This document shows, piece by piece, positions 5,416 to 58,896 of a DNA stretch of 64,000 nucleotides. Source of the stretch: Spirochaetales bacterium (lineage in GTDB: Bacteria > Spirochaetota > Spirochaetia > SZUA-6 > JAFGRV01); NCBI GenBank assembly GCA_016935735.1, contig JAFGQK010000057.1, positions 23,623 to 87,622 of the forward strand. Direction: 5' to 3'. Numbering within the stretch: position 1 is the first letter of the stretch; each line of letters starts with the position of its first letter. The notes beneath the pieces are model-generated. The model saw only the letters and a list, made by a program, of their open reading frames with translations, was not told the DNA's origin and made no database searches. A program made the translations under genes and the position numbers.

Positions 5416-5475
5416 AGTTAAAATTCCTTTTTAAATAACATTTCATTAAAATAACAGCAATAACCAGTGTATAAT

Positions 5476-30570: not shown

Positions 30571-30644
30571 TATTTTCCCCTTCAGGATTTATAAAATTAA
30601 CAACAAATTTTATTTATTTTAAAAAATTATAATTTTTAATGTAT

Positions 30645-42600: not shown

Positions 42601-45600
42601 CCGGCACGCCTGGGAATGATATCTCCCTGGCTGTTTTTCAATGGTTCCCATGCCCTGGTTTTATGTACAACATAAAAGGGAGTATTATCGAGGTTAATAT
42701 ATGGGTTGAGTGAATTAAAATGTAAACTGGCAGGCAGGACGCTGTGTTTAAATGCCAGTAACACCTTGATAACACCGGCGATTCCTCCCCCGGCTTCCAG
42801 GTGGCCGATATTGGTTTTAACAGAACCCAGACCACAGAATGGTTTTGCCGGTCGATCTGATTCGGCATTTGCGTCCATTTTCGCATATGCTTCTTTAAGC
42901 CCATTGACCTCAATAGGGTCCCCTATAGCAGTTCCCGTACCGTGTGCCTCTATATAACTCACCGTATTGAGACTGATCCGGGCATCTTTGTAAGCCTTTA
43001 AAAGCAGTTCAGATTGTGCCCTGGGATTGGGAGCTGTTAAAGATTGGGTCTGCCCTCCATGATTTTCCGCCACCCCTAAAATGATCGCGTAAATAGTATC
43101 CCTGTCGGCTTCGGCTTGTTTCAAGGACTTTAAAATAATCGCGCCGACACCCTCTCCCCTCACATACCCATTAGCTTTCTCATCAAAAGTTTTACACCTT
43201 CCATCCGGGCTGAGCATCCCTGTCAGCCGGAATGAAATATGAAACTTGGGACGCAGGATAATATTCACTCCCCCGGCAATTGCCAGGGAACATTCGCCAT
43301 TTCTGATACAATCAACAGCATGCTTGATGGCAACCAGGGAACTGGAACATGCCGTGTCTATCACTTCGCTCGGGCCGTGTATATTCAGCAGGTATGATAT
43401 CCGGTTTGCAATTATGGAATTATTTATCCCGCTGGATATGAATGGATTAATGCTCAGTCCATAATCCTTCATGAGTTCATTATAATCGTTTAGCGAAGCA
43501 CCGACAAACAAACCGGTATTTGTTCCGGATAACTCATCCGGGTTGTATCCGGAGTCTTCCAGTGCGCTCCAGACCGTTTCCAGGAATAACCTCTGCTGGG
43601 GGTCCATATATGCTGCTTCACGAGGTGATATACTAAAGAACCGGGCATCAAATTTATCCACATCTTTAATAAAACCTCCCCATTTCACATCTGTTTTATC
43701 AGTTCCGCTTTTTGGGTCACCATAGTATTGTTTCCAATTCCAGCGATTTTCCGGTATTTCCGTAATCATATCTTTCTCATTCACCAGATGTTGCCAGAAA
43801 TCTGCCAGAGTCTCTGATTGGGGAAATTTTCCCCCGATTCCTATAATAGCAACATGTTTCCGGTTTTCTGAAACTTCGTCAATCTCCTGCTTGAAATTAT
43901 TTTCACTTGTCTGGTGAGATGCTGTAATCTGCGGGATGAATCTATTTGATGCTGCATTCATGATTATCGTACCGGTTTTTTTGTTCTCTATATCCGATTG
44001 CCGGTGCTTTATTTTATCGAATTTATTATAATAGGCGGTTACTTTTTGATTATTCTCCTGGTAGAGAAAAAAGGAAAAATCATGTAATGTCTGATACTCA
44101 TAAAATACTGCCGGAGAAATAGTACTATTATATCTCTCATTAATACGATTGGCAAAATGGGTAAAGGTAATGGAATCAAAGCCAAAACTGCTGAATTTCT
44201 CACCAGCACTTATTTTCTCCGGCAGTAACTTTAAGATTTCCGATATATCCAGGGATAAGTCTTTCTTGACCTGCCTGACAATGGAATCCTCTTCTCCTGG
44301 TTCAATTGTGTTATCAGTGGAAATACCTGGACAACCATTGCGTTTCCCCTGTGTATGATCTTTATTTTCTTGAAAAAGGGCAACGATTTTCCCCGGCTCC
44401 CCTATAATGATACCGATGTTTGAGACCTGCTCTTCAAGAACTTTTTCAAATACATCCAATCCCGATTCAGTATCCATTCCTTTGAAACCATATAGGTTCT
44501 CAAGATGCCTGACAGAATAATCATCCAGTTTCATACCCCCCTGTTGCCACCAGGGCCAGTTTATTGAAATAGTTCTTCCTGATCTTGTGTTATTTTCTCT
44601 CATCATTTCCCTGTACAGGACAAAATCATCCAGGAAACGGTTTGCAAAAGAATAATCTGACTGTCCGATATGCCCGATTATGGATGAGGTGGATGAGAAC
44701 AGTATAAAGAAATCAAGTTTTTCAGACTTTAAAACATCATCCAGGAAGAGTGTTCCCCATACCTTGGATGCGATGACTGCTTCACTATCTTCCCGGGATT
44801 TATTAATAACAAGCGAATCCCTGATAACACCGGCACAATGTATGATGCCATTTAATTGCCGGTACCTGGCTTTGATCCGGGAAATAAGCCTTTTTACTGC
44901 TTTATGTTTGGAAATATCCGATTTCAGATAGGATACCTCGGCACCCAGTGATTCAAGCTGATTGATCTTTCTTCTTTTCTCTTCATTAAGATCACTTCGC
45001 CCGGTTAATACTAATTTTACTTTCATCTTTCGAGTTATGTACCGGGCAAAAATAAATCCCAGTCCCCCGGATCCGCCTGTTATCAGGTAAACGCCGTTTT
45101 CTTTTAATGTACTGGCATTTTCGCTATTCAAATCCCGGGCTTGTATTATATCTGCAAAATCACCTGTTTTTACTTTTTTGATAAAACGCTGCTGTAATGA
45201 TGCATAACGTATTTCAATGACACCTTGCCAGGGATTAATACTTTCATTAATAATTATCTCATAAAACTTGTCCGAAAATACTCCTTTACACCGGATCTCA
45301 AGTACTTTAAAGGATAATCTCGGATTTTCCCGTTGGATACTCTGGACCAGGCCGCCCAGGGAGGCAAACTGGGGTTGATGGATATTCGTATGATTAAAAT
45401 AGGTATAAATGATTTTTACTTCACCTGTTGTCACTCCTCCCAGCAGGGCCTTGCAGAGAAACTGGATTGAAAAAAGACCCTGGTCAAGCTGTTCCCCGAT
45501 TTTATCCGGATCAATGGTATCAGCAGCCTGCGACCACAGATGCAGTACCGTGTCAGGTGTAAATTTCTTATCCTTAAGGGATAACAATAATTTGATATAA

Positions 45601-48600
45601 TCTTCTTCAACGCCGGGGTTGATTTCATAGCGCATATCACCGCAATCCAGAAACTCCTTTCCCGGCTTAACCAGCACAATACCTGTCTGTTGCAGATGAA
45701 GCATTTTATGAATGCATGGCAGTATTTCATCACCCGGGGCGAATATAATGCATGCAGTCGCAGGATTCCACCCTGGTCCGTTTTCAGGGAGTGGTACTTC
45801 CTCCCATTGACAGGTGAAATATATTTTTCGGCTGATTTTATTGAGAGTAGCACTCATCCCGGTTTCATGTTTCTGCGGAAAAGGGCGTGAAAAATAGTCT
45901 TTAATACCGACGAGTATATTCCCGTCTTCATCGATAATGCGGATATCATATTTTGTCATATCTGTTAAAGAAGCGGAATTCCCCGCGGCATTGGTTGCTA
46001 TTGCATAGCAAACAGGTGTTAGTGGCTTATGTAATTCCACTTCGCCGATAGTAAAGGGAATATAAGGTTGGGCAGGTACGCCCCGGAGTTTACTTTTCCA
46101 GACAGTCACCGTTTGAAGGGAACCATCCAATAAGGCAGGTGACAGGACAACATCATGACTTATTTCCCCTTGCAGTTCAAGGATAGAGATGGCCATATCC
46201 TGTGTATAATAAAGTTCTTTGATTACCTGATAGCTTTTCCCGTATTCATACCCTATGGACTTTAACAATCGATAGCATTCTGATTTTCCTATTACCCCTT
46301 CAGATCTCTCTTTCATATTATTTATGTTAAATCGTTCACCACTTTGTTCTGTTCCGATTATGGGAATGAGTATGGTATCATTCTTTTTTGCGGTCTGGAT
46401 TCCGTTTTCCGGCTCCATTTCCCATTCAGCATGGATGATAGCATGATCATTATTATGTCCGGTCCGGGCACAGCACTTAATTGAATTTTCCCCCGGTTTA
46501 AGGCTTATGAATAACTCCTTTGCCGTTTCATTAACAATAACCGGTCTTATCCAGACTATATTTTTAAGTGTATTTATTTGTTTTCCCTGCAAGGATACGG
46601 TACCTGCTATTCTTGCCATTTCAAAATAGGCAGCCCCCGGTAAAATCATCTGTCCATTAATGATATGATCTCCTACAAACAGGTCATGCCGTGAAAGCGA
46701 TTTCTTGAAACACTGCTCATATAGATTTGAGACATTACAGTCTATCATTGAATGCAGGCGATCGCTTTTATTATCAGCACTTTCATCTGTTTCGGGTTTG
46801 CATTTGCCGGTAATCCAGTATTTTTCACCTGAAAACCTGTATGTGGGTAAAGGAACACGCCCTGGGTGTTTGTTCCTGTACAGTATATCCCAATCGATTT
46901 CAATTCCCTGGATCCACCTGACAGCGAGTGTGTCATGTTTGTTCGCTGCCACTAACTCCTGCACATATGCTGAATTTATTTTTTCCTCCGGTAATACCCG
47001 TGTCCCGGCTCTCTTGTTATTGATATTACCTGCATAAATCCGTTCTCCGGTTGTAGTTCCATGGCAAAATCCTGTTAGTTTAACAATCATCTCATCTATA
47101 TTGCCGGCTATAAGGGCAAGCCTCTCCTGCATGGCGACGCGGCCGGTCTGGAGTGTATAAGCAATATCACAAAGTTTAATGTTTATGGAATTCGATTGTA
47201 CATGCTTCAGGAAATTTATAAAGACTTTAAGGTAAAGGATTAAATTCTCTCTATTCCTGTTTGAAAAAACAAGAATATATACATTATCATCCGTTTCTTT
47301 ATCCGGTATTCTTTCATATTCCTCCAGGATAAAATGAGTATTCACTCCCCCCGCTCCAAAGGAACTGATACCTGCACGTAATGGAAAAGTAACAGGTTTT
47401 CCTTCCACATTTAATGTGGGCCTTTCCCACCTGGAAACTCGCTGTTGCACAAAAAAAGGCGTTTGGTCAAATGGTATCAAGGGGTTCAATTTGCCCGCGT
47501 TGAGTGAAGGAACCAGTAAGCCGTGCTTCATTTGTAATAATACTTTTATAATTCCGGCAATGGCAGCCGCGGACTCCAGGTGTCCGATATTGGATTTTAC
47601 CGAACCGATTGCACAGAACTGTGTATCGTTCTTATGTGCGGTAAGATTCATATTTTCCTTATAGGCTTCAGTTAATCCCCTTAATTCGATTGGATCCCCC
47701 AGGGAAGTTCCGGTACCGTGAGCTTCAATATAACTCATCGTACGTGGATCTATTTTACTATTATGCAAAGCCTTTACTATAAGTTCTTTTTGTGCCAGGG
47801 GGCTGGGAACCGTAAATCCATTTGTTTTTCCGCCAGAATTTATGGCACTCCCTTTAATAACGGCATAAATATAATCACCATCTCTTTCTGCTGCCTGCAG
47901 GGGTTTAAGAAGAATAGCACCCACACCTTCTCCGTAGAGTGTGCCAGTGGCATTTTCCCCAAATGGACGTATGATATTGTCACGGGATAATACCTGCATT
48001 TGGGAGTACTGTATAAACCTGCTCGGATGTATGAAAAGATTGATTCCTCCCACTATAGCGGCAGCACAATCATTTTCACGGATACTTCTACAGGCGAGAT
48101 GCAGTGCGGTTCCAGCGGATGAACAGGCCGTATCTACGGTAATGCTCGGGCCATGAAAATCGAAAAAATAGGAAATACGGTTAGGTATTTGATAAAAATC
48201 CGAGTTCCGGTATGCGCTTTCTCCCTGGATTGCTGCCTGGTTTGTCAAGGTATTGTAATCACTTGCAATAAGTCCTACAAACACTCCTGTGTCCCTATCA
48301 AAAGTATCCGGCGTATAACCCGCATCTTCTAAAAGTCCCCAAACAACTTCCAGAAAAAGCCTTTGCTGGGGATCCATCAGTTCTGCTTCCCTTGGAGATA
48401 TATTAAAAAAGGCCGCGTCAAAACGGTCTATAGCATCTAGAAATCCCCCCCATTTACAGTATGATTTCCCGGGTTTCCCGGTTTTATCATAATAGAAGCC
48501 GCTATTCCAGCGGTCTCCGGGTACTTCATAGATTGAATATCTGCCATTTACCAGATTATTCCAAAACTCTGCCGTATCGGCTGCAAGGGGAAATCTTCCA

Positions 48601-51600
48601 TTAATACCGATAATGGCAATATCATTACCAGATGCTTTACCGGTCCGGGTGGATAAACCCGATTCATCGATTTTTTGTATTTTTTGTGTGTTTTGCGTAG
48701 AATCATTTTTATTGTTTATCAACCAGTCAATAATACTTCTCATAGTCTTATGTTCAAATAGCAATGTCGGTATGACATTGTTAAATTCCCTGTGCAAAGC
48801 AGAGGTTATTTCCACTATTTTTAAGGAATTCCTGGCTATATAGGTATCAATCTCTTCATCCTCATTCAGGTTTGCTTTTGAAAGAAGCAGCACCCGGGAA
48901 AAGATATCTTTTACTTTATCAAGAATCATAGCATAATGCAGAGTGTCAGACAGGTGAATGGAAATTTCATGGGTATTGCCCTTTTCGATCTTCATATCAC
49001 CTGATTTATTATGCAAATATAAGTTTATCTCCTTTGATAATCTATCACTATCGCCAAGTTCAATGATACGGGTCAGAAACTTTTCTTTTTTCCTTACATG
49101 CGAAAAAGATAGTTGTGCCTGTTTTTCATGATTTTTTCTTTTTTGAGGGACAGCCTGATCGCTCATGTTTTCCGATGGCTTAAAAGCAACTTCCAGAAGG
49201 GCAGCAGCCGGAATAATAAATTCAGTTTTATCATTCTCATGGGTGGTGATATGTTTTTTTGCAATGTGCTTAAGAAACAGCCATGCCGGCTGGTTTCTTT
49301 GCGTTTTAATAAATATACCTTTTAAATTCTGTAATTTCTTTTTTTTAGCATCTGCACCAAGCCATGCCATCATTCTGTATTCTACGCCGCGTCCCAGCAC
49401 ACGACAACTCAAAAGCAGTGTATCAAGTACCAGATCCTTACCCGTTATTTTTGTTATCATAACACCCACTGTGCCATAGTCCCCGAAACGATCGCTTACA
49501 TCGACTGTCCAGCATTCACAGGTTTCATCTTTTAATAGATGAGTGATCTCGGCGGGAGACCGTCTTGTTGTGGAAAAATTAAACTGATTGGTTCTGCTGG
49601 TAAGCTGTGAAACACGGGCAATTTTTGCTTCGGTGAGCAGGTTAATCTTAATATCCAATTTAAGGTTTTCAATATATTCCTCGAAACTGTAACAGGAGGT
49701 TTTAAACTCTTCCCTTTTGATATTTGCCCGGTATGATTCATGCCGGTTTTTATCCTCATCCGTCACAGCATAATTATCCAGCATCCAGATATGCTCAAGA
49801 AAATATTTTCTATTCTTTACCTCTGGCCAATGCAGGGTAAATACACCCGGATTGTTTTCATTAACCTCGGCACATTCCACAGGATTATCATCAAAAAGAA
49901 AGAATGCCCCTGCCCCCAAATTCAATGAATCAGCAAGGGAGTGGATATTCTGGGATTTAGGAAGCCAATTTATCCTGCTTTCTATGATATGTTCCTTTTT
50001 AAGGGGCATACTGTTCTGCTCATCGTATACATCCCAGATATCCTTTGGATTATTTTTACTGCAAAGACAGAGCAGTAATCCTTCATTATGCTTTTTTACA
50101 AGAAATTGTTGAAACGTTCTATACCAGCCTTTGATCTTCACGCCCTGTGGTCCATCCTCGCCGCATACACCTTCCCAGAGGGTATTATCACAATCAAGGG
50201 CAATAACTTTGTACGGTGCATTTTTAATAATATATAATCTTCGAAATATCAATGTGGATAAAAAATGGTAGTATTCCGGGAAATATGGAATATGTCCCAT
50301 TTCATTTCCCATGGGATCAAAGATATTGACAATACCATAGTATTTGTGGTAATCCCGGGCATTTATAAGATCAATAGCTCCCAGTTTCTTGATATGTTGC
50401 ACAAGTTTTGTTTCCATTTTCCTAAACAATTTTTTTATGGAAGTGTTTTGTTCATATTCCGGTGAAGCCGGGCAGAGTAAAAGCAGCATATAACATCCCT
50501 GCCGCCCTGAGTAAGATTGTAAAGCCATGATTAAATCATTGAATACAGACCACAGATAGCTTTTTAATTGTGAGATGTTTTCATTGTTTTTTACCATTAC
50601 GCCTTTATCATCTTTATTGGCTTGGTAATATCTTAGCCAATCATCAAACTTCAAAATAATGACATTCATGCCATTGGAATTCCTGGTAAAAACACTGAAA
50701 GGATCCAATAACTCCTGAAACACCTGATTATAAGGAGCAAACTGAATATCGATGGGTGTATCCAGTTCTTTTTCCCAGAACTCTAATCCATCACGTAATG
50801 GCTCTGCCGTAAATGTCGCGGAAATAGTGAGTTGAATATTTTTGTCTTTTGTCCGGTCAGGTGTTTTTTCACTACTAATTCCAATATCACTCATTTTATT
50901 TATCCGGATGTCATCCGGGCTATGGCTGCGAAGTGCATAGAGGTTAATAATCCCGGAATGACTCAGATTCTTTTCTTTTTCCATTTTTGTTGAAAACCCT
51001 TTACCGTGTAATAACCGTTCTACTTCTTTTATTGATTCATCCGGCAACTTATGCAATTCCATTACTATTTGTTTTATTTTAGGCCAATCTCTGTCTTTAA
51101 TCCCTTTCAGGATATTAAGTTCGTGCTTCTCTGCATCTATTTTTAAAAGATCAATTATTGCCACATCAGATTCGGCCATAATGTCTGATATGGTTTTTAT
51201 CTTGCATTTATATTCAATTTTATTACTTAATTTGTTTTTTATTATTTCATTAAGGCAATTCTCTTCAAAATCATTATTTAAAGAATTGGAACTCAGAATA
51301 CCATCTTTTAAGATTTCATAATCGCTGGCATAATCTGCATTAAATCCGGAAATAATTGAATAATCAGGATAAAAAGTAAAGATGCTTTCACCCTCTTTAT
51401 CTGATACCCCGCATTGTAATATCGCAATATTATTTTCATATTCCTTTGTATTAAAACGAATTATGTCATTTAATTCGGGGGAAGGTTCAATCGCAACTAC
51501 TTTTATATTACCGTACTGGTTTAAAACAAATAATGAAAAAAGACCTATGTTTGCGCCAACATCAAATACACAATCTCCCGGATTGATCGTTATCCCGTTT

Positions 51601-51755
51601 TTTGTATAAACCTTTTCTACAAAAATTTCATTATAAACGAATTCGGTTTCATATTTATTCTGGTGGGCTATGAAGAGTCCGTTAGGTAGTTGAATATGTT
51701 CCTTTTTAATCCCCTCTAAAACCTGCTTATTATCCTGGACACTTTTATGATTCAT
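30645..51755 (-). CDS. Trans-AT PKS, 7036 aa: FkbM-FkbH-ACP-KS-DH-KR-ACP-KS-DH-KR-ACP-KS-KR-ACP-KS-ACP-KS
   Basis: N-terminal SAM-MTase motif DVGANIGLFSLF (FkbM type), HAD motif ALDCDNTLWEGVCGEDG (FkbH type), five KS domains with TACSS/HGTGT/GH motifs, two DH, three KR, five ACP, no AT. Confidence 0.96.
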   Translation of the reverse strand: MNHKSVQDNKQVLEGIKKEHIQLPNGLFIAHQNKYETEFVYNEIFVEKVYTKNGITINPGDCVFDVGANIGLFSLFVLNQYGNIKVVAIEPSPELNDIIRFNTKEYENNIAILQCGVSDKEGESIFTFYPDYSIISGFNADYASDYEILKDGILSSNSLNNDFEENCLNEIIKNKLSNKIEYKCKIKTISDIMAESDVAIIDLLKIDAEKHELNILKGIKDRDWPKIKQIVMELHKLPDESIKEVERLLHGKGFSTKMEKEKNLSHSGIINLYALRSHSPDDIRINKMSDIGISSEKTPDRTKDKNIQLTISATFTAEPLRDGLEFWEKELDTPIDIQFAPYNQVFQELLDPFSVFTRNSNGMNVIILKFDDWLRYYQANKDDKGVMVKNNENISQLKSYLWSVFNDLIMALQSYSGRQGCYMLLLLCPASPEYEQNTSIKKLFRKMETKLVQHIKKLGAIDLINARDYHKYYGIVNIFDPMGNEMGHIPYFPEYYHFLSTLIFRRLYIIKNAPYKVIALDCDNTLWEGVCGEDGPQGVKIKGWYRTFQQFLVKKHNEGLLLCLCSKNNPKDIWDVYDEQNSMPLKKEHIIESRINWLPKSQNIHSLADSLNLGAGAFFLFDDNPVECAEVNENNPGVFTLHWPEVKNRKYFLEHIWMLDNYAVTDEDKNRHESYRANIKREEFKTSCYSFEEYIENLKLDIKINLLTEAKIARVSQLTSRTNQFNFSTTRRSPAEITHLLKDETCECWTVDVSDRFGDYGTVGVMITKITGKDLVLDTLLLSCRVLGRGVEYRMMAWLGADAKKKKLQNLKGIFIKTQRNQPAWLFLKHIAKKHITTHENDKTEFIIPAAALLEVAFKPSENMSDQAVPQKRKNHEKQAQLSFSHVRKKEKFLTRIIELGDSDRLSKEINLYLHNKSGDMKIEKGNTHEISIHLSDTLHYAMILDKVKDIFSRVLLLSKANLNEDEEIDTYIARNSLKIVEITSALHREFNNVIPTLLFEHKTMRSIIDWLINNKNDSTQNTQKIQKIDESGLSTRTGKASGNDIAIIGINGRFPLAADTAEFWNNLVNGRYSIYEVPGDRWNSGFYYDKTGKPGKSYCKWGGFLDAIDRFDAAFFNISPREAELMDPQQRLFLEVVWGLLEDAGYTPDTFDRDTGVFVGLIASDYNTLTNQAAIQGESAYRNSDFYQIPNRISYFFDFHGPSITVDTACSSAGTALHLACRSIRENDCAAAIVGGINLFIHPSRFIQYSQMQVLSRDNIIRPFGENATGTLYGEGVGAILLKPLQAAERDGDYIYAVIKGSAINSGGKTNGFTVPSPLAQKELIVKALHNSKIDPRTMSYIEAHGTGTSLGDPIELRGLTEAYKENMNLTAHKNDTQFCAIGSVKSNIGHLESAAAIAGIIKVLLQMKHGLLVPSLNAGKLNPLIPFDQTPFFVQQRVSRWERPTLNVEGKPVTFPLRAGISSFGAGGVNTHFILEEYERIPDKETDDNVYILVFSNRNRENLILYLKVFINFLKHVQSNSINIKLCDIAYTLQTGRVAMQERLALIAGNIDEMIVKLTGFCHGTTTGERIYAGNINNKRAGTRVLPEEKINSAYVQELVAANKHDTLAVRWIQGIEIDWDILYRNKHPGRVPLPTYRFSGEKYWITGKCKPETDESADNKSDRLHSMIDCNVSNLYEQCFKKSLSRHDLFVGDHIINGQMILPGAAYFEMARIAGTVSLQGKQINTLKNIVWIRPVIVNETAKELFISLKPGENSIKCCARTGHNNDHAIIHAEWEMEPENGIQTAKKNDTILIPIIGTEQSGERFNINNMKERSEGVIGKSECYRLLKSIGYEYGKSYQVIKELYYTQDMAISILELQGEISHDVVLSPALLDGSLQTVTVWKSKLRGVPAQPYIPFTIGEVELHKPLTPVCYAIATNAAGNSASLTDMTKYDIRIIDEDGNILVGIKDYFSRPFPQKHETGMSATLNKISRKIYFTCQWEEVPLPENGPGWNPATACIIFAPGDEILPCIHKMLHLQQTGIVLVKPGKEFLDCGDMRYEINPGVEEDYIKLLLSLKDKKFTPDTVLHLWSQAADTIDPDKIGEQLDQGLFSIQFLCKALLGGVTTGEVKIIYTYFNHTNIHQPQFASLGGLVQSIQRENPRLSFKVLEIRCKGVFSDKFYEIIINESINPWQGVIEIRYASLQQRFIKKVKTGDFADIIQARDLNSENASTLKENGVYLITGGSGGLGFIFARYITRKMKVKLVLTGRSDLNEEKRRKINQLESLGAEVSYLKSDISKHKAVKRLISRIKARYRQLNGIIHCAGVIRDSLVINKSREDSEAVIASKVWGTLFLDDVLKSEKLDFFILFSSTSSIIGHIGQSDYSFANRFLDDFVLYREMMRENNTRSGRTISINWPWWQQGGMKLDDYSVRHLENLYGFKGMDTESGLDVFEKVLEEQVSNIGIIIGEPGKIVALFQENKDHTQGKRNGCPGISTDNTIEPGEEDSIVRQVKKDLSLDISEILKLLPEKISAGEKFSSFGFDSITFTHFANRINERYNSTISPAVFYEYQTLHDFSFFLYQENNQKVTAYYNKFDKIKHRQSDIENKKTGTIIMNAASNRFIPQITASHQTSENNFKQEIDEVSENRKHVAIIGIGGKFPQSETLADFWQHLVNEKDMITEIPENRWNWKQYYGDPKSGTDKTDVKWGGFIKDVDKFDARFFSISPREAAYMDPQQRLFLETVWSALEDSGYNPDELSGTNTGLFVGASLNDYNELMKDYGLSINPFISSGINNSIIANRISYLLNIHGPSEVIDTACSSSLVAIKHAVDCIRNGECSLAIAGGVNIILRPKFHISFRLTGMLSPDGRCKTFDEKANGYVRGEGVGAIILKSLKQAEADRDTIYAIILGVAENHGGQTQSLTAPNPRAQSELLLKAYKDARISLNTVSYIEAHGTGTAIGDPIEVNGLKEAYAKMDANAESDRPAKPFCGLGSVKTNIGHLEAGGGIAGVIKVLLAFKHSVLPASLHFNSLNPYINLDNTPFYVVHKTRAWEPLKNSQGDIIPRRAGISAFGFGGTNAHLVLEEYHKNYYRASTNVEEYQSKKENPGFPGNRMRIIVLSAANTERLHEYVKVFHDYLESTNNDELSICDIAYTLQVGRKPMNERAAMVVGDVEGLNQLLASFCEGNRDNDSIVTGRVDAENIRDDGLLKINDLMNMDRYEQKAALVEIALAWIKGITVDWTLLYQDEQPKRVPLPTYPFAKESHWLPGKFMDNHSDKERKKLTAMMHPLLDENKTNLKQIRFTKLFTGTEFYLSDHLIEGRKVLPGVVYLEMARAAGELALEKKIISIRNIVWAQPIIVDEIPQDIHTVLYPDGDSLKYEVKSLAPHDEGQSIYARGKLIFNKNNDTRLNDEYIDISLIKNRLTHILTGEQFYRSFDIDGSRYLHRFQSVQKLLYDKQESLSMVELPAGLEAEFKDYILHPALMDGALQTIIGLKTEEQRKNEAPFLPFTIGEIDLLHPLTSICYAYTTISASAHGSLPEVMYYDILITDRKGKVLLKIKDYCVRSLKGKMVKKPDIAAHADETVYYYKKWRSNPFDNKHSKTINHVCRDNVPNPATIMVWDIDNDVYNALKHTLSMSCSSDSHLIRILPGDNFNNQSSDSYQLNPGKTEHIKQLIDDLQQKRLVPDYIIWNIRHDLDYEASLFSDTVLDKVIYPLFNLNRELIRYNPARQIKCIYIYPVNSDMNNTNNAENIIFESLTGALNGLARSVFLENLKIRFKTVEVSIPDENGHYPEPAGLAGLICDELFTGGEGEVRYSNNHRYTMELNEIDPDTLIKALNSGPLFRQQGVYVISGGTGSLGRIVANYLAENYRAKLIVTGRTPLNNNREEFVRALEKSGAEICYLQSDISNLDDVKILINKSLARFGKINGIIHCAGIINDSLLINKDPENIKQVIAPKVRGTIYLDMLTKELDLDLFVLFSSLSALAGNIGQSDYAYANSFMDHFAQLRENLRRNNQRYGKTIAIGWPYWREGGMKVHPENEKFLASTTGMKPLDTQTGLTIFEKSVSLPYSWIGVMKGESKKIRNWVTSLTGNTEIMQNKNIIENEGYDNANSYMARFESDMRTIFAELLQLSINKINLKDDLSKLGMSSILFVELANRINEKYGMEIIPSVFFSYSTIASVVLFLFQGYSEKITGYYINTVDEESANFLNTPAGTPGTTGFSPAENKMHDVTPMPNINNEPVAIIGLDALMPASGDLDEFWENLEKGVDMVSRIPAERWNAMGYRQQKVEDPIDICAAWGGFITDIDKFDAGFFNISRKEAEYMDPQHRLFLETVWKAIEDAGYSPGDMAGTRAGVYAGVANSDYYDVVRDSGKGMDAYAITGREHSILANRISYLLNLHGPSEPVNTACSSSLVAIHRACEALRSGKCHLAIAGGVNVLISRAYYHSVSDAGMLSRDGRCKTFDKDAHGYVRSEGCAVLVLKLLSSAIIDRDHIYGIIRGSCVNHNGRTSSLTAPSADSQAELLIETYSSANVDPGTISYIETHGTGTELGDPIEIESLKKAFHELQKRQGTQGNNKVHIGLGSVKTATGHLESASGMAGIIKVLLSMKNKVIPGNIHLREVNPYIKLDDSPFYLVKDTIQWERLKDDSNNPIPRRAGVSSFGFGGVNAHMIIEEYEETGPRHNNTVHVPQVIILSAKNDARLKEYARKLLQYLENKRARNTNNALPDIRDIAYTLQTGRDTMPSRLACIVSDVPELVEMLHQYCSGQADIKYLYTGNVKTTEKISEDIINMGMLIKKQDMALLAKLWVSGAEIDWMLFYHTDKPRRLSLPTYPFARERYWIDTNTHTQRQEVMTQCVDETINSPDQINYYRTEWINKRIDPGLDPEKNNSNRNILILIDNAGVRETILNCIGKKAGPGNNFVFVSKGEKYNKINQNVFEINPVHVQDYQTLFQALEQSGMFPDTIFHAWSEGIFCQDMESLKREIESGLFSLFYIIQNLTIKKIKRTVSLLFIYSSENGSTQPHYEAVSGFMKSVQRENNCLECKTVEIQNPSGKLEDINPEWFIESMLRELEVYDGPQVRYGESTRQVKLLYKHKWEDTSHNTGTTLVKEKGVYLITGGLGGLGIIFAQYLARKAEIRLVLSGRSVLNDEKVKKINELKELGMDVMYLQSDISCPRQTGQLIRDVKQLCGGINGIIHCAGIIRDGFLINKSVQSLQEVINPKVFGAINLANAIKDEKVDFFVMFSSIASVFGFAGQCDYAYANAFLDSFAYINGKTGAINKGKCKTISINWPYWGDGGMKIPDEELELLCTQTGFRPIPGDLGLEMFERCMQSGSCHCIITYGNQDKIDQYMSQLLYKDESLQNKQFESSKNISLQEINDEIICKKTEQYLKNIFSKLLSVDEGDITADSSFEEYGIDSIIINKFNNHIEDSLCNLPRTLLFEYRNIEELVEYFVQNHKEKLIRLFEDRESTGKKDIHFIDDHIKNSTVIKQDKPSSEIHKQNAGEWETENDIAIIGMSGIYPGANDLDEFWSNLKTGKDCITEIPGNRWDYHLYYHPDKDMANQGKIYCKWGGFIDDADKFDAPLFGISPREAGAIDPQERLFLQSVWAALEDAGYAGQIFDWYRNKSNYTDIGVFVGTTTNTYPYIGIEKWNQHLEKQQSGFNRVEEHSTLIHFAHPWSIANRVSFYFGFHGPSMPVNTACSSSLSAFYLACESIKRGECSMAIAGGVNLFLHPFKYLEMCSARMLSPSGKCFSFGDRADGFVPGEGIGAVLLKPLSRAIKDNDNIYGIYKGGAINHGGRTNGYTVPNPAAQAAVIAMAVKNADIDPSTISYIEAHGTGTELGDPIEIEGLSRIFRKYNDRRQYCSIGSVKSNIGHLESAAGIAGITKILLQMRHKQLVPSLHARTLNPKIDFESSPFFVQRNLSEWKQPVKLENGRQIPYPRRSGISSFGAGGSNVHIIFEEYSGYNDNSPAEIHIKTGNQRRYLIPLSAVDEDCLLLYAGKLAGWLENYLDSSVQGVSTDTVRHKPGFSLTLHDIAHTLQVGRVSLEVRLALLVSSIDELVKLLKQYSEGYLEKQQLGFNCVEEHLINDNRASTNVEERISNGTIFTGRVRKIKRNKNNPIVKVNEIIQSEGSRGMETLALLWVKGAEIDWKLLYQDPYPGKISLPTYQFKKESYWLDSHCIDFPAKNNSDVKGIEDMDSTGELGKGHLNNQTTEQPKIISENNTDKAEIKNQRLLSKSLEKKQMISEDTIKAKIKELLAKVLFMQPQTVDENKQFVDLGLDSVLGVEFINKLNKIYNTSIEASKLYDYSTAVELAKYAVDLVNKDLYEINNNEQVLSPGNNKEIKADPASCTPASYTKVKSDHEEPAGIPKLKLKNQFTIAKNNQGKNQAREEFSGFKNGPDNHDDIAIIGMSARLPGAADTWELWDILTKGICTVREVPSERWSIDEHYNPDTTVKNKSYCKYGGYLSDIDKFDPLFFNISPREAKLIEPQQRLFLQEAWRAFENAGYSSEALANMRCGVYVGVGSINEYNPLYMFNTSSILAARISYFLDLKGPAVSIDTACSSSLVAIHMACRSLIHNEADMMLAGGVTIFLTEKLYIQMCQAGMLSPDGKCKSFDNEANGFVPAEGAGVLVLKRYEKAVLDGDYIYGVIKGIGMNQDGRTNGIAAPSSVSQKELEIEVYEKNGINPETITLVEAHGTGTSLGDPLEFEALKGSFQRFTNKKQYCALGSLKSNLGHTAAAAGVAGIIKVLLAMKYRKIPATLHYKTPNKQIDVTNSPFYMNTSLKDWKTAPDVPLRGTVSAFGLSGTNAHVVLEQVNNNINQTRQRTMPYYIIPLSAKTDESLAQKTKDMAKWIELEGTGHFISDVSFTLFLGRSHFQLRIALVVKDMIDLKNQLEKLITDGIPGDILSGKLVNENNASTPLFLQLGKTLIQQLKNGMDLEKSEVKEKLLALADFYNRGGNLEWKDLFTDQECSRIPLPMYPFVKKSYWTRGTEQAEEHKVRGMEKKRRNHMEQIKKADPYTKEKTVKILLDVFAKKI
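33479..33520. repeat. 42-nt palindromic element, copy E1 (type 1), tandem with E2
   Basis: gctcctcaacattcgttgaggcacgattgtcatttataaggt; encodes HLINDNRASTNVEE. Confidence 0.88.
33521..33562. repeat. 42-nt palindromic element, copy E2 (type 2), tandem with E1
   Basis: gctcctcaacacagttgaagcccaattgttgtttttcaaggt; encodes YLEKQQLGFNCVEE. Confidence 0.88.
34778..34819. repeat. 42-nt palindromic element, copy F (type 2), inside a KS domain
   Basis: gctcttcaacacgattgaaacccgattgttgtttttcaaggt; encodes HLEKQQSGFNRVEE between GVFVG and ANRVSF of the KS. Confidence 0.88.
42506..42547. repeat. 42-nt palindromic element, copy G (type 1)
   Basis: actcttcaacattcgttgaagcacgatagtaatttttatggt; encodes HKNYYRASTNVEEY directly after the KS-terminal EEY. 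Confidence 0.85.
49240..50790 (-). other. FkbH-like glyceryl transferase/phosphatase domain (1,3-bisphosphoglycerate-derived starter loading)
   Basis: Full-length FkbH pattern: NQVFQELLDPFSVFTRNSNGMNVIILKFDDW, then VIALDCDNTLWEGVCGEDG, LCLCSKNNPKD, FLFDDNPVECAEV, SCRVLGRGVEYRMMAWL. Boundaries approximate. Confidence 0.88.
50925..51755 (-). other. FkbM-type O-methyltransferase domain at the N-terminus of the 7036-aa PKS
   Basis: GDCVFDVGANIGLFSLFVLNQYGNIKVVAIEPSPEL and LLKIDAEKHELNILKGI, typical of the FkbM methyltransferase family. Boundary approximate. Confidence 0.85.
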
Positions 51756-51787
51756 TAGTGGGAATCCTCCATAATTTTTTACCAGAT

Positions 51788-53542
51788 TTACCGCACATGT
51801 TCAGTCAATGAAAACTCATTGATGAAAGAATTAAATTCCCCGTTTAAATACGCTTCTTTTAATTTATACCGCTGGAGTTTTCCACTTGTTGTCACCGGGA
51901 ACTGCGTTACCGGGATAATATGGGATACGCCGACACCGATTCTCTTTATAATGTGTTTGGCAATTGTCAGGGCAATCTGTGAAAACAAACTTAAATCACC
52001 TCTGAATCTGAGAAAACAGATGATTTCTTCTGTTTGCAGAACCGGGTTATAAACCCCGCAGACTGCAATTCCTTTTTTATTTATTATTTCCAGTTCATTG
52101 CAGATTACCTCTATATCATATGCATGATATGTATTGCCATTAACGAAAATAATATCTTTCTTCCTGCCGATTATAGTAAGATAACCATCCCTTAAGAATC
52201 CAATATCACCCGTTTTCAACCATCCGTCGGTATTTATTGCGTTTGCGGTAGCTTCCGGATTATTATAATAGCCGCTGGTCACATTATTCCCTTTTATCTC
52301 TATATTCCCAATTATTCTTTCTCCTGCTTCATTACCATTCTCATCGCAAATTCTTACAAAACAATCACAGATCGGTTTTCCTGTTTCTACCAAACATACA
52401 GCATCATCATCAGTACTCTCTATTTCCCTGATTTTATCTCCGATATTTAAAAAATTTCTATCGATATAAACCTCGACATATTCGGTGCCCGGATCGGGAA
52501 ATGCAACAGCAACAGTGGCCTCGGCCAGTCCGTATACAGGGTACATAGCGGTTTGGGGTAATCCAAAGGGTTTCAGGTTCTCGATGAAGGTCCTGCATAC
52601 ATCGGCAGATATAGGTTCTGCTCCATTGTAAAAAAGCTGGATAAAGGATAAATCAATATCAGCACATTTTTCAGGTTTAAAAAACTTCATTATATGCTTA
52701 TATCCGAAATTCGGTGATGAAGCATATTTCGGTTTATATTCGGCTATCTTTTTTAGCCAGAACATCGGATTTCTGACAAACAGGAAGGGAGGCATGAGAT
52801 AATTATTACAATCCCCGACAACAGGTACGAGATGAAAACCAATAAGTCCCATATCATGCGTAAGAGGCATCCAGCCTAAATAACAACCTCTTGTTTTAAT
52901 CGTACCGGATGTATTTAGAATTGCCCTGGTATTCGTGAGTAAATTTCTATGTGTTAATATCACACCCTTGGGAGTACTTGTTGATCCGGATGAAAATTGG
53001 ATAAATGCAATATCCGATTCTTTTGGGATCTGGATAATTCCATCTTGAGTATAATCATTAATGTGTTCTACTTTCAAAGATTTGTCAGCTATTTGCATCG
53101 ACAGCTGATTGAAACCTGCTTTTTCCGTATAATCCAGGATACGCGGCAGATTATTTCCGGCAATAATAAGAGATGGATCATTAAGTGTTTTCCAGATATT
53201 TACTATTTTATATATATTTTTTTCATACTCGGGAAATGTTATTGGCACAGGAATAATTCCGCCTAAAAGACATGCCCAAAAAACCAGGATAAAATCGAAA
53301 TTATTGGGTAACAGAAGAATTAATTCATGATTTTTTTGTAAACCTGCTGCTTGCAGCCCACCTAAAACTTTTCTTGCTTTATCCAGCATCTGTTTATAAG
53401 TAATATGTATATCACCATCGCTTTCAATAAAAACTATTTTCTTTTCAGAATGGCTTTTATCACATAATACTTCAACTAAATTCTTGTATTCTGATATTTT
53501 CTTTTCTGGTATCATAATGTTATTCCCCATTTTTATTATCAA
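51788..53542 (-). CDS. FAAL-like acyl-AMP ligase (AMP-binding enzyme), stand-alone
   Basis: 584 aa. FIQFSSGSTSTPKGVILTHRNLL (A3 core), LGWMPLTHDMGLIGFHLVPV (FAAL-like), GWLKTGDIGFLRDGYLTIIGRKKDIIFVNG, C-terminal TTSGKLQRYKLK. No fused ACP. Confidence 0.88.
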   Translation of the reverse strand: MIIKMGNNIMIPEKKISEYKNLVEVLCDKSHSEKKIVFIESDGDIHITYKQMLDKARKVLGGLQAAGLQKNHELILLLPNNFDFILVFWACLLGGIIPVPITFPEYEKNIYKIVNIWKTLNDPSLIIAGNNLPRILDYTEKAGFNQLSMQIADKSLKVEHINDYTQDGIIQIPKESDIAFIQFSSGSTSTPKGVILTHRNLLTNTRAILNTSGTIKTRGCYLGWMPLTHDMGLIGFHLVPVVGDCNNYLMPPFLFVRNPMFWLKKIAEYKPKYASSPNFGYKHIMKFFKPEKCADIDLSFIQLFYNGAEPISADVCRTFIENLKPFGLPQTAMYPVYGLAEATVAVAFPDPGTEYVEVYIDRNFLNIGDKIREIESTDDDAVCLVETGKPICDCFVRICDENGNEAGERIIGNIEIKGNNVTSGYYNNPEATANAINTDGWLKTGDIGFLRDGYLTIIGRKKDIIFVNGNTYHAYDIEVICNELEIINKKGIAVCGVYNPVLQTEEIICFLRFRGDLSLFSQIALTIAKHIIKRIGVGVSHIIPVTQFPVTTSGKLQRYKLKEAYLNGEFNSFINEFSLTEHVR

Positions 53543-53560
53543 TGATTATATGTCCACCTT

Positions 53561-53602
53561 GTAAAAACGACAATTGAAGTACAACTACGTTGAACACTAA
53601 TC
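53561..53602. repeat. Degenerate intergenic copy H of the palindromic element, opposite orientation
   Basis: Minus strand gtgttcaacgtagttgtacttcaattgtcgtttttacaaggt; 25 of 35 core positions match the type 2 sequence by my alignment, with the terminal caaggt kept. Confidence 0.5.
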
Positions 53603-53723
53603 AAGATAAGTAAAGTGAATTATTATAAATGAGTGGTAATTCCCGGATACAGCTTATTAATTGCTGCTTAATAAGATAAGATAGGTTTTTTATTTTTTCT
53701 GGATTGTATTTGTCATGAAGTGG

Positions 53724-54956
53724 TTAAGACCACATATATTCCCTGTGATACCCGTTCACTTTTTTTAATACCAACATGTTTTTGCCTTCCATGGATTGTT
53801 CGTATATATTTGAAAATTTTGATATGTCTATTTCCTTATCTTTGATCCCGAATACCCACTCCATATTCATATCGATTATCCTGTCATATTCCTCAAAATC
53901 CAGTTCATACCTGCTGCCGAGATGTTCGGCTATTTTCATTTTACGTAATACTTCTTTAGATCTGGGAGAAATTAAGCCACTATAAAATTCAGAGGAGCAA
54001 CCTGAACCATAGGAAAATATGCCAATACGGTTGTAATTATCCAGTTCGACAGTATCAACCAGACTGCAAACAGCCATGTATACGGTAGCAGAGTATATGT
54101 TTCCCACTAAAACACAATATTTCAATGAGGGTTCCACCCGCTTTTGAAAATCGTGTTCTATTTGTTCCATTGAAATTCCATTCATCTTTCGCATTAAGTT
54201 TCTATGTGCTCCCTTTACCATTCCAGCGAACGGTGTGTGAAAGGCCAGATAATTAAAGGTATCGATAAAATCAACACCTTCGACCTTACTCTGGTAGTGC
54301 TTAAAGCTGTTTTCAAAACAATCCAGGTAGGTAAGTAAAGAGAGATCTGCGTCACCTAATTCAATTTCAGGTAGAGGACGGCATGTATCCATCACCTCAT
54401 AGCTGTAATGACCGGTCGCGCCAAGATCTATTTCCATGATTTCAGGATTATCGCTTACCAGCATCGCTACTGCTCCTACAGATTGTGTGGGCTCTGCATA
54501 TGTTTTTTTTGCAGCAGCCCGTGCCGTATCAGTAGCAATCACCAGGGCTTTCGCTCCCGGTGATACGCCGGAGGCGATAAAACAGACAGCCATCTGGAGG
54601 GCAGATGTGCCTCCATAGCATGCCTGTTTCACCTCAAATAATCGACAGTGCCGGCTTAGATCCAGGTAATCATGAATATACGTACTCAATGATTTCCCGA
54701 AATCCAAGCCTGATTCTGTCGAAGTTATCACAAGCTCAATCTTATGTTTATCTTCCGGACTTAATAAATCCATTATCGGTTTTGCCGCGTTAACAGCATT
54801 GGTTACGCCATCCTCACAGGGAAGACCAACAGATTTCTTTTTCATCATTAAATTATCAAAACGTTCCAGGTTAAGACCTCTTTTCTCAAAAAGAGTCTTT
54901 ACGTCAACATAAGCCGGTCCCCCATATAAATTTATCGCTTCAATTCCAACATTCAT
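53724..54956 (-). CDS. HMG-CoA synthase-like beta-branching enzyme (HMGS/PksG type)
   Basis: 410 aa. MNVGIEAINLYGGPAYVDVKTLFEKRGLNLERF, active-site region EVKQACYGGTSALQMAV, FHTPFAGMVKGAHR, FSYGSGCSSEFYSG. Confidence 0.93.
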   Translation of the reverse strand: MNVGIEAINLYGGPAYVDVKTLFEKRGLNLERFDNLMMKKKSVGLPCEDGVTNAVNAAKPIMDLLSPEDKHKIELVITSTESGLDFGKSLSTYIHDYLDLSRHCRLFEVKQACYGGTSALQMAVCFIASGVSPGAKALVIATDTARAAAKKTYAEPTQSVGAVAMLVSDNPEIMEIDLGATGHYSYEVMDTCRPLPEIELGDADLSLLTYLDCFENSFKHYQSKVEGVDFIDTFNYLAFHTPFAGMVKGAHRNLMRKMNGISMEQIEHDFQKRVEPSLKYCVLVGNIYSATVYMAVCSLVDTVELDNYNRIGIFSYGSGCSSEFYSGLISPRSKEVLRKMKIAEHLGSRYELDFEEYDRIIDMNMEWVFGIKDKEIDISKFSNIYEQSMEGKNMLVLKKVNGYHREYMWS

Positions 54957-55003
54957 TTTTATTTCCTTCCATCTAACATATTTGAGCTCTTATTATTCCG
55001 GTT

Positions 55004-56245
55004 TTAATTGGTATGGGCATTTAACCAATTAAGTAATGGCACTTTAACATCCTGCAGTGAATTGGCACCAAACATAACATCCACATGTCCATAACCATCC
55101 AGGTAATTAATGGTAACATCACTATTTACTGTCAGGTTGGGAATCAGATCACCTGGCGGAACACCATCCGGACAATTTATTTGTGTAAGAAAAGCTATGG
55201 CTGGTAAATCAACAACATTATCATCATAGTCAAAATAAGGAACATCATCATAAGCAGCTAATTGCATATCCTCAATTGTTTGGATTGAAGGATAATATCG
55301 TGTAAAATCATTTACTATTTTGACCAGGATATCTTTTGCTATGTACCCTCCAAAATAATTTGTCAACATACCCGGCCCCCACAGGTAATATGCCTCGGTT
55401 ACAACCAGATCCGAAATATCTTCGTAGTTAGCCGGTAATGGAGCACCTACCATATTCTTTGAATTTGGCAATAATTTTGCTAATTTCCATGATTCATAAT
55501 TCGGGGTGCCAATATCATAGACCCAGGGAACCGGATCACCGGTTTCTGGATTCGGCAGCATACCTGCCTTGAAAAATGCTATCACCTGCATATAAGTTAA
55601 TTCGTCCATAGGATCACCATATGGGGGATAGTCCTTGATAGCACCATCCAGACTTACAAGACCTTTAAGGTCATTTTGATATTTATTTGCATAAATAAAC
55701 ATCAGGGTCGCCCCCCGGCTGAATCCACTCATGAAAATTTTACTGGTATGACTCAGTATCTTAATTAAATTTACGCATTCTTTCACATCTTCACGAAATA
55801 CTCCGTATGTCCAATCTGTAGTAGACAATAAATCAACACCGCCTGCCAATAACTGTTCATAATCCATATCCGGTATATTGGCTACCCTGCAATCAATGGT
55901 AAATACATCATAGCCATTGTTTGCCAGGTAAATCATTGTGTTACTATTGCTATCAGTAATGTCGGACCATCCGGCAGCCTGGTAGGTTCCGGGAAGCATC
56001 AAAATTACTTTCCTGCTGTTCCGCTTCCAGGGTTCCTTTTTGACAACCCTGTGTAATACGATTTTATCAAGGTTATTATCACTATTGAACTGCCATTGAG
56101 TATGAATCAATTGCGGATTATCCGCTACCACAGTTAACTCTTTGAATTTCCATTTCATGAAATCTTGTAGATCACCTTGTGCTGATACGGTGAACGCTAT
56201 GAGTAACATTGCTCCCAAACAAAGAAAAATCTTTTTTGTCTTCAT
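55004..56245 (-). CDS. Predicted secreted alpha/beta hydrolase
   Basis: 413 aa. N-terminal signal peptide MKTKKIFLCLGAMLLIAFTVSAQGD (no lipobox Cys), nucleophile elbow GFSRG, VILMLPGTYQAAGWSDI, late GYGHVDVMFG consistent with a catalytic His. Confidence 0.8.
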   Translation of the reverse strand: MKTKKIFLCLGAMLLIAFTVSAQGDLQDFMKWKFKELTVVADNPQLIHTQWQFNSDNNLDKIVLHRVVKKEPWKRNSRKVILMLPGTYQAAGWSDITDSNSNTMIYLANNGYDVFTIDCRVANIPDMDYEQLLAGGVDLLSTTDWTYGVFREDVKECVNLIKILSHTSKIFMSGFSRGATLMFIYANKYQNDLKGLVSLDGAIKDYPPYGDPMDELTYMQVIAFFKAGMLPNPETGDPVPWVYDIGTPNYESWKLAKLLPNSKNMVGAPLPANYEDISDLVVTEAYYLWGPGMLTNYFGGYIAKDILVKIVNDFTRYYPSIQTIEDMQLAAYDDVPYFDYDDNVVDLPAIAFLTQINCPDGVPPGDLIPNLTVNSDVTINYLDGYGHVDVMFGANSLQDVKVPLLNWLNAHTN

Positions 56246-56407
56246 AATTTTACTCTCCTTTTATAGTATTTGTTTAATATCTCCATTATGTCCCCGGATT
56301 AAGCTGTTATATAAAAGTCATTTAAACGCACTATTTGAACTTGCCCGGGGTATAATAATGGAAAATTAATCTGCAGTAAGACTGCGGATAATTATTTATT
56401 TGCATAT

Positions 56408-57682
56408 TTAAATCTTCTTAATCACAATGGAAGTATTCATACCACCAAAACCAAAGGAATTGCTCATTCCAATATTAATTTCAACAGTTTCGGCCACAGA
56501 ACCGGCAAACCGGCATACCTCATCGACAGGGTTATCAAGATTAATATTGGGATGAACAAAATTATTCTGTAGTTGTATTATAGTTGCTATCAACTCGACA
56601 ACTCCTGCTGAATAAAGACAATGCCCGGTTAATCCTTTTGTTGAATTGATTATTAATGTTGATAAATTATTTTTAAAAACCTCTTTTATCGAATCAATCT
56701 CTGTATTATCTCCTATAGGGGAGGATGTACCATGAGTATTTAAATAATCAATATCGCCCGGCTTTAACTGACATTTCTTTAATGCAGTTGCCATAGCCCG
56801 GACTTCTCCCTCCTGTCTCGGGTCTGCCATGCGATTACCATCAAGGACTATAGCGCCGCCTAATAGTTCTGCATTTATATCTGTCTTTCTTTTTTCCACC
56901 GATCCGGATGACTCCAATATTATACAGCCGCTGGCCTGGCCGTAAATAAAACCTTCGTGTTCCTCATCAAAAGGCCGGCATGCTTTTCGTGGATTGTTTT
57001 TAAATTTTTTTCCACCCATAGCTCCTGAATTCTTAAATCCCTGTAAATCCATCGGAGAAAGATCGGCCAGACAACCGACAACCATACATATATCCATATC
57101 CCCTTGTTCAATAAGTTGATATCCCTTTACCAGACCGACATTCCCGCTTGCAGAAGCCCCTCCGGTTGTAAATCCTTCACCATGTATTTGAAATATTTCA
57201 CTTAGAATCCCCATAATATTTGTATCCAGATATTCGATGGCATACCGGGGAGTGAGATATTCAGGCCCTTTGATAAATTTATCATATAATTGAAATTGAT
57301 AATTATTACTCAGATTCTGGCCTGCAATAATTATCCCTGTTCTTTCCGGACTTACTGGATTATTAAATAAATCGGCGTTATTCCATGCTTCTGATGCAGC
57401 AATTACCCCTGCTATTACAGGAAGAGGGGAACGTCCGGCATAGCGTAAAATATTTGTACTGCAGGAAACCGGTAGCCAGGTATATTTATCAAGGAGAGTA
57501 TTCAGACTAAAATCTTTTATTGTTGCTCCTATAACAGCAGAATCCATTGAAATTTCAGGGCCGGGTAGATAGCCAAAATTCGTATTCCCATGTTTCAAGG
57601 ATTGACTGAAATCATTAACATTGAATCCGATTGAGCTTACTATGCCCATCCCGGTAACCAGAACTCTACTTTTCATGGGCAA
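56408..57682 (-). CDS. Stand-alone KS with Ser at the active-site position (decarboxylase-type KS of HMGS cassettes, PksF-like)
   Basis: 424 aa FabF fold. TTGGASASGNVG replaces the usual TxCAxG motif, so Cys becomes Ser. THGTSSPIGD and GLTGHCLYSAG retain both His. Confidence 0.85.
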   Translation of the reverse strand: MPMKSRVLVTGMGIVSSIGFNVNDFSQSLKHGNTNFGYLPGPEISMDSAVIGATIKDFSLNTLLDKYTWLPVSCSTNILRYAGRSPLPVIAGVIAASEAWNNADLFNNPVSPERTGIIIAGQNLSNNYQFQLYDKFIKGPEYLTPRYAIEYLDTNIMGILSEIFQIHGEGFTTGGASASGNVGLVKGYQLIEQGDMDICMVVGCLADLSPMDLQGFKNSGAMGGKKFKNNPRKACRPFDEEHEGFIYGQASGCIILESSGSVEKRKTDINAELLGGAIVLDGNRMADPRQEGEVRAMATALKKCQLKPGDIDYLNTHGTSSPIGDNTEIDSIKEVFKNNLSTLIINSTKGLTGHCLYSAGVVELIATIIQLQNNFVHPNINLDNPVDEVCRFAGSVAETVEINIGMSNSFGFGGMNTSIVIKKI

Positions 57683-57905: not shown

Positions 57906-58005
57906 TATAAATATCTCCTATTTAATTCCAGGATAAGTAATAATTGTAACAATCAACTCGCCTGGTATTATTATTTTCTATCATATAACGAAGGCTTAAG
58001 CCTAC

Positions 58006-58052
58006 AACCTGGTTAACAGGCTATCCAGGTTATGCTGGTCTAATTAACCTGG
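58006..58052 (-). promoter_or_regulatory. Mutually exclusive hairpins in the nusG-ACP intergenic leader
   Basis: Minus strand: CCAGGTTA-N12-TAACCTGG-N12-CCAGGTT. The middle segment can pair with either flank (8 bp or 7 bp). Confidence 0.55.
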
Positions 58053-58070
58053 CAGCCACCATAAGATATT

Positions 58071-58598
58071 TCAGTTAGTGTTAATATATTGTTTTTGTAT
58101 TACTTCAATCCCTAAATTTATTCTCATTTTTCTTTTAAACAGGAATATCTCCACTTTTGCTTTACTCTTTTTTTGATCGATCCATAAAATATTGCCTTGA
58201 AGAATCTTCAGAGGGCCTGCTGTGATTTCAATCCTTTCTCCGACTTTAATCCCCCGGGATAATTGAAAAGTTCCGTTTTCATTTGCAGACCTTAAAAGCA
58301 GTTCTATTTCCTCTTTATAAACCTTACAGGGTTTGTTGTTTATAGATATTGGAGAGATAAATTCTTTGGAAAGATATAAATTGGCTATTTTACAGGCCTC
58401 TTTTATGGATTGATAAACAAAAATATAACCGGAAAATAAAGGTCCGAATTTCTTTACTTTCTTGTTTTGTCTGGAGTGAATTATTTCTCTTTTAAAAATA
58501 GTCATCTGTATTGGAGGTGAAGCATATTTTTCTATTTTTTCTTTTATAAACTGCTCTTTTCCTGTTGTGACTTGAAGTACATACCAATCGCTAAACAA
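58071..58598 (-). CDS. NusG paralogue (LoaP/UpxY-like specialised antiterminator); start codon TTG
   Basis: 175 aa. SDWYVLQVTTGKEQFIKEKI (NGN domain), KKFGPLFSGYIFVYQ, C-terminal KOW-like GIKVGERIEITAGPLKILQGNILWIDQKKSKAKVEIFLF. First gene of the co-directional PKS operon; RBS AGGAG 10 nt upstream of TTG. Confidence 0.88.
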   Translation of the reverse strand: MFSDWYVLQVTTGKEQFIKEKIEKYASPPIQMTIFKREIIHSRQNKKVKKFGPLFSGYIFVYQSIKEACKIANLYLSKEFISPISINNKPCKVYKEEIELLLRSANENGTFQLSRGIKVGERIEITAGPLKILQGNILWIDQKKSKAKVEIFLFKRKMRINLGIEVIQKQYINTN

Positions 58599-58695
58599 AG
58601 TGTAGTTTCTCCTTTTTTAGAGTAAATTTCTCCCCTTCTACCTGCAAAATTTTTTCTTCTACAGGTTTTTTTTTCAATATCCCATCGCTAAGCCA

Positions 58696-58741
58696 CCGGA
58701 AAAGACCTATAAAGCTGTTTTTCCCGGATCGATAGGGTCTT
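58696..58741 (-). promoter_or_regulatory. Candidate structured 5' leader RNA (H-type pseudoknot-like) upstream of the nusG paralogue
   Basis: Minus strand: AAGACCCTAT...ATAGGTCTT stem (one bulged C); its loop carries CCGGGAAAA, which can pair with the TTTTCCGG overlapping and following the stem. Confidence 0.45.
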
Positions 58742-58868
58742 TGTCACGCAAATCTCAGGCTGACTACCCTATTGTTTCGAAAAAAATAAATACTACCGTA
58801 TGGAAATCCTTATCTAAAGTCTATAATTTTTTTTTGAAACGATACTACTTAACTTACGTGCAAAAGAT

Positions 58869-58896
58869 ATTATAACACAGGTATTCAAAAAATCAA
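58869..58896 (-). promoter_or_regulatory. Candidate sigma70-type promoter for the nusG-PKS operon: -35 TTGATT, 16-nt spacer, -10 TATAAT
   Basis: Minus strand reads TTGATT-TTTTGAATACCTGTGT-TATAAT about 270 nt upstream of the TTG start of the NusG paralogue. Confidence 0.6.

Follow-up and report, generated by a model that had tools for sequence, protein, structure and literature searches.

The 64,000-nucleotide stretch of spirochaete DNA analysed here (the window) carries a paralogue of nusG as the first gene of an operon of more than 58 kb, and raises the question of whether the leader in front of this gene is a structured RNA that controls the whole operon, as was originally predicted from the sequence. 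The genes of this polyketide synthase operon encode an ACP-like protein, a ketosynthase, an HMG-CoA-synthase-like protein, an AMP-ligase, as well as megasynthases (7036, 8364 and at least 1805 aa). A very large number of NRPS and PKS modules (45 condensation and 46 KAsynt_C_assoc matches) are spread over contigs C24, C89, C97, C162, C293, C302, C370 and others of this genome.

The promoter and the first gene

Both the TATAAT promoter and the leader of about 260 nt claimed for this locus are borne out by our analysis. The promoter-like site, with its -10 element at 58874-58869 on the minus strand, matches at 10 of 12 positions and is among the best of the region; when the upstream stretch was shuffled 200 times, a site as good arose only twice. 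The implied start at about 58862 lies some 260 nt ahead of the TTG codon at 58598 on the same strand, and all the sequences quoted in the original prediction, for example AAGACCCTAT, ATAGGTCTT, CCGGGAAAA, TTTTCCGG and ACCTGTAG..TTGCAGGT, are present. No terminator-like site was found inside this leader, so that an element acting on downstream signals fits better than attenuation. A strong hairpin, CCAGGTTA..TAACCTGG, with no U tract, lies after the nusG paralogue and ahead of the gene that follows it (57990-58050, minus strand).

The family to which this genome (G000) belongs is represented by five genomes only, the others being G001 of the same genus, G003 of another genus, and G002 and G004. 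The paralogue scores 117 bits with the LoaP model NF033641, against 56 for UpxY and 22 for RfaH, and the LoaP cut-off of 125 bits is reached neither by this protein nor by its counterparts on contig C386 of the same genome (121 bits), in G001 (115 bits) and in G003 (111 bits); a canonical LoaP is encoded elsewhere in the genome (C119, 152 bits). By these profile scores, the paralogue is LoaP-like and we do not file it as LoaP. Its closest solved structure is 8f5g, which we take to be a LoaP-RNA complex. Two members of the LoaP-like sub-clade occur in this genome, on C154 (the one in the window) and C386, and are 69% identical; in the sub-clade, the two residues that would match, on an inferred numbering, the RNA-contacting E40 and R41 of LoaP are different. 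A third, more distant LoaP-like gene (C391) is 37% identical.

A conserved leader RNA

In the window, no covariance model of Rfam 15 matched at its gathering score, and a permissive search returned chance-level matches only; neither a riboswitch nor any other family was recognised, and by this search the leader RNA is a new family, absent from Rfam. Homologues were sought first by a DNA search of related genomes, next by a sequence pattern and last by a covariance model. Ten good copies were found in this genome (C97, C154, C222, C257, C273, C307, C351, C381, C386 and C408; 75-138 bits with model R2), along with two degenerate ones (C231 and C23; 34-38 bits), one copy in G001 (C145) and one in G003 (C224). 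The last was detected by model R1 before its own sequence had entered the alignment, with 68 bits and an E-value of 9.6e-22, which is rough owing to a short calibration. The contigs are fragmented, and three copies lie less than 300 nt from a contig end.

Since noise reached about 25 bits, matches below 30 bits were disregarded, and nothing above noise was found in G002, G004, the other genomes of the order (26 in total) or about 240 genomes of the class. R2 also gave weak matches in genomes of other phyla that carry LoaP, the best of which (25.5 bits) is antisense within a coding gene; exact matches to the pattern TCGATCCGG..CCGGTGG outside the genus are apparently due to chance, and viral contigs yielded no convincing copy. 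The leader of the third LoaP-like gene (C391, about 2100-2510) contains the exact P5 14-mer GGATAAATTTGTCC and, by eye, helices resembling P1 and P3; it does not match R2, and the resemblance is one of small numbers.

The copies share a conserved fold of about 170 bases, the parts of which are given in Table 1.

Table 1. Positions of the leader RNA, its promoter-like site and the genes that follow, in window coordinates.
Feature	Position	Strand	Basis
Promoter-like site TTGATT-16 nt-TATAAT, TG ahead of -10	58896..58869	minus	sequence match
P1, arms ATAGGG (58772-58767) / CCCTAT (58737-58732), enclosing P2	58732..58772	minus	100% paired in 11 copies
P2, GTCA (58764-58761) / TGAC (58746-58743)	58743..58764	minus	A-U to G-C change among copies
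TCGAT junction, P1 to P3	58728..58732	minus	near-invariant in alignment A6
P3, CCGGGAAA (58727-58720) / TTTTCCGG (58703-58696), variable loop	58696..58727	minus	100% paired
Conserved tail TGGCTTAGCGATGGG	58681..58695	minus	alignment
P4, ACCTGTAGAA / TTTTGCAGGT	58640..58666	minus	base conserved, upper part partly covarying
P5, GAG/CTC, AAATTTA loop, weak	58620..58632	minus	alignment
Shine-Dalgarno AAGGAG of the nusG paralogue	58609..58614	minus	sequence
LoaP-like NusG paralogue, 175 aa, TTG start 58598	58071..58598	minus	PF02357; NF033641 117 bits
Polyketide synthase operon	1..57682	minus	gene content downstream of the nusG paralogue

Two-sided covariation, which the original prediction had proposed to look for in homologous leaders, was indeed found. 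Across 11 sequences, all 121 cells of P1 and P3 are paired, and four pairs show two-sided changes (8 cells), two of them among the six pairs of P1; P3 is formed by TCAG and CTGA in the G003 copy. The covariation score of these two helices was reached by none of 500 shuffles and exceeds all slid controls. Judged from the alignment, the case for a structured RNA family in which compensating changes keep P1 and P3 is good but not overwhelming, because the two-sided cells are few and many of the copies are close paralogues. The unpaired TCGAT and TGGYTNAGMGA rank among the best conserved letters. Covariation is weaker in P4 and P5, for which the evidence comes from small numbers: in P5, a short dyad with an AAATTT core, two of three pairs change on both sides, in one sequence each. 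The folding energy of the core does not differ favourably from that of shuffles (z = 0.29), while the part with P4 and P5 is far more stable than they are (z = -4.1); the support for the core fold, as read from these sequences, is comparative.

As to the structures originally proposed, the first hairpin, AAGACCCTAT (58741-58732) with ATAGGTCTT (58710-58702), belongs to the window copy only, the corresponding complementarity elsewhere being 4-7 nt and of the chance kind. This hairpin was rejected: it is missing in the other copies, would exclude P1 and P3, and is weaker (-5.3 kcal/mol) than the conserved P1, P2 and P3 together (-17.7 kcal/mol). The pseudoknot seen in CCGGGAAAA and TTTTCCGG is actually an ordinary hairpin, P3, whereas the second hairpin, ACCTGTAG..TTGCAGGT, is P4 and is conserved among the copies. 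We also considered another pseudoknot, between RGCC in P2 and GGYT after P3, which pairs in 7 of 11 copies, has an A-C mismatch in the other 4 and shows no clear two-sided change, and is therefore unsupported. In the window copy, P5 (GAG/CTC) and a small hairpin that covers the Shine-Dalgarno sequence (CTCT/GGAG; 58609-58632) are mutually exclusive, an arrangement that is not general.

An RNA core that is merely incidental would leave the P5 dyad (the GGATAAATTTGTCC type) as the signal, which the NusG paralogue would recognise either as DNA or as a hairpin, much as RfaH does with ops, and the exact 14-mer does occur in the G003 element and in the C391 leader. We hold this to be very improbable: the two-sided changes keep P1 and P3 as RNA helices, and the same 14-mer is found in a coding sequence of G001, which tells us that chance matches occur.

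Neighbours of the copies

In this genome the RNA stands directly upstream of both LoaP-like sub-clade genes, on C154 and C386, two loci that are alike from P1 onward only and whose promoters are not alike. This is the pattern of the group A copies, in which the common part is the RNA from P1 onward and LoaP-like genes follow. In the group B copies (C257, C273, C307, C351, C381 and C408) the P2 hairpin is longer; these copies agree at about 76-90%, a likeness that takes in up to 150 nt of upstream sequence together with the promoter, and their neighbours are unrelated genes. A leader peptide or attenuator was rejected, since the reading frame of group B is broken in C381 and group A has no start.

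Two further copies precede biosynthetic operons with no LoaP-like paralogue in the neighbourhood. The C97 copy is upstream of a hybrid NRPS/PKS operon, and that of G003 is upstream of an NRPS-like operon with dehydrogenase, HMGL-like and AMP-ligase-type genes, the last judged by sequence alone. Directly after P5 of the G003 copy (about 7960-8040, minus strand) lies a perfect 17-bp hairpin (ACTTCAGTAATGGAAAT..) with no clear U tract, which could be a stop for a LoaP-like factor to override. The LoaP-like genes of G001 and G003 lie apart from the RNA and have no copy in their own leaders, so that any action there would be in trans and autoregulation is not general. The RNA is present in the three genomes of the family that have the sub-clade (G000, G001 and G003) and absent from the two that lack it (G002 and G004), a perfect co-occurrence that is weak evidence over five genomes, as it would arise by chance about 1 time in 10. 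At eight further NRPS/PKS operon starts of this genome the RNA is absent, and terminator-like sites showed no enrichment on the strand of the operon.

No long operon is visible behind about half of the copies (most of group B, C222 and the G001 copy). An alternative is that the family consists of duplicated, promoter-bearing small RNA genes or of a non-autonomous repeat that spread in this genome, with the operon-adjacent members placed by chance or co-opted, as the likeness of the group B copies through their promoters and their unrelated neighbours would suggest. However, in group A the likeness begins only at P1 and LoaP-like genes follow, an NRPS-like operon follows the copy in the second genus, compensating changes keep the helices, and the end repeats or terminators that mark such units were not seen; we rate this origin as less likely, though a live rival. 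The C351 copy, near a contig end, runs into the end of a tyrosine recombinase gene; in both G001:C145 (2126-3119) and G000:C351 (5284-5663) the element lies facing the 3' end of an Xer-type tyrosine recombinase gene. An integron attC site or mobile element was rejected as an explanation, because in G002, G003 and G004 homologues with some 50% identity occur without the element.

The conserved unpaired letters around covarying helices, and the presence of the RNA on several biosynthetic operons, would also suit a riboswitch in which the junction with TCGAT and TGGYTNAGMGA binds a pathway-linked small molecule and controls transcription or, near P5, translation; the exclusive choice in the window copy between P5 and the hairpin over the Shine-Dalgarno sequence points the same way. 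Yet only the two nusG leaders have P5 near a start codon, this leader has no terminator, no shared terminator or Shine-Dalgarno platform was found, no Rfam riboswitch matched, and the genes downstream of the copies have no single pathway in common, so that we consider ligand sensing rather unlikely, though still a live rival.

Antitermination as the candidate role

In Bacillus velezensis, a small UNCG hairpin of the dfn leader is bound by LoaP, which allows the polymerase to pass NusA-dependent terminators in polyketide operons; among bacterial NusG-like proteins, LoaP is reported to be the sole one known to recognise a specific RNA element (PMC12691694). As with LoaP and the dfn/mln leader hairpin, the locus studied here combines a NusG paralogue of the LoaP kind, a very long polyketide operon and a putative determinant in the 5' leader (PMC12691694). 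Unlike the single small UNCG hairpin of dfn, the spirochaete RNA has several helices in about 170 nt; this leader contains no hairpin with a UNCG loop, and all leaders together have 3 where 2.85 are expected. The EAR (eps-associated RNA) of Bacillus is likewise a complex structured RNA in a long operon and has been proposed to be a processive antiterminator (PMC7858274), whereas the spirochaete leader matches no Rfam family. The RfaH/ops, TaA and UpxY systems also have specialised NusG paralogues, which lie next to long operons or act on them (PMC7819879); the element recognised by RfaH is DNA, while the spirochaete protein scores best with LoaP.

The association with the LoaP-like paralogue favours antitermination. 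Because the type of protein, the type of operon and the position of the leader match those of LoaP, and yet the UNCG hairpin is missing and the putative counterparts of E40 and R41 differ, an antitermination leader with a different RNA is the reading we favour. The sequences show a promoter-like site, a conserved RNA with its fold and a genomic association; binding of the LoaP-like protein, its recruitment and antitermination are inferred. That the RNA is a cis-acting leader for processive antitermination with a LoaP-like factor is thus our best explanation, and a tentative one, which we place just short of an even chance. The leader would fold while emerging from RNA polymerase and would load the LoaP-like protein, in cis or in trans; the loaded elongation complex could then disregard terminators and pauses along operons tens of kilobases long, and a copy that no operon follows would be a leader that has decayed or been duplicated. 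The more specific proposal, that a complex RNA class loads a divergent LoaP-like paralogue by a recognition unlike that of the Bacillus UNCG hairpin, and does so in trans on several megasynthase operons, is possible but doubtful. The recurrence, with covariation, before other biosynthetic operons and a second nusG paralogue supports the original idea of a structured leader in control of the operon, and runs against its proposed refutation by a lack of covariation; the specific pseudoknot and the first hairpin have not stood.

The leader RNA would add a family to Rfam. If the antitermination reading is true, there would be a second RNA, larger and covarying, linked to a divergent LoaP-like protein; it would reveal how recruitment of this kind evolves, and would provide a handle on the giant polyketide and peptide operons of uncultured spirochaetes.
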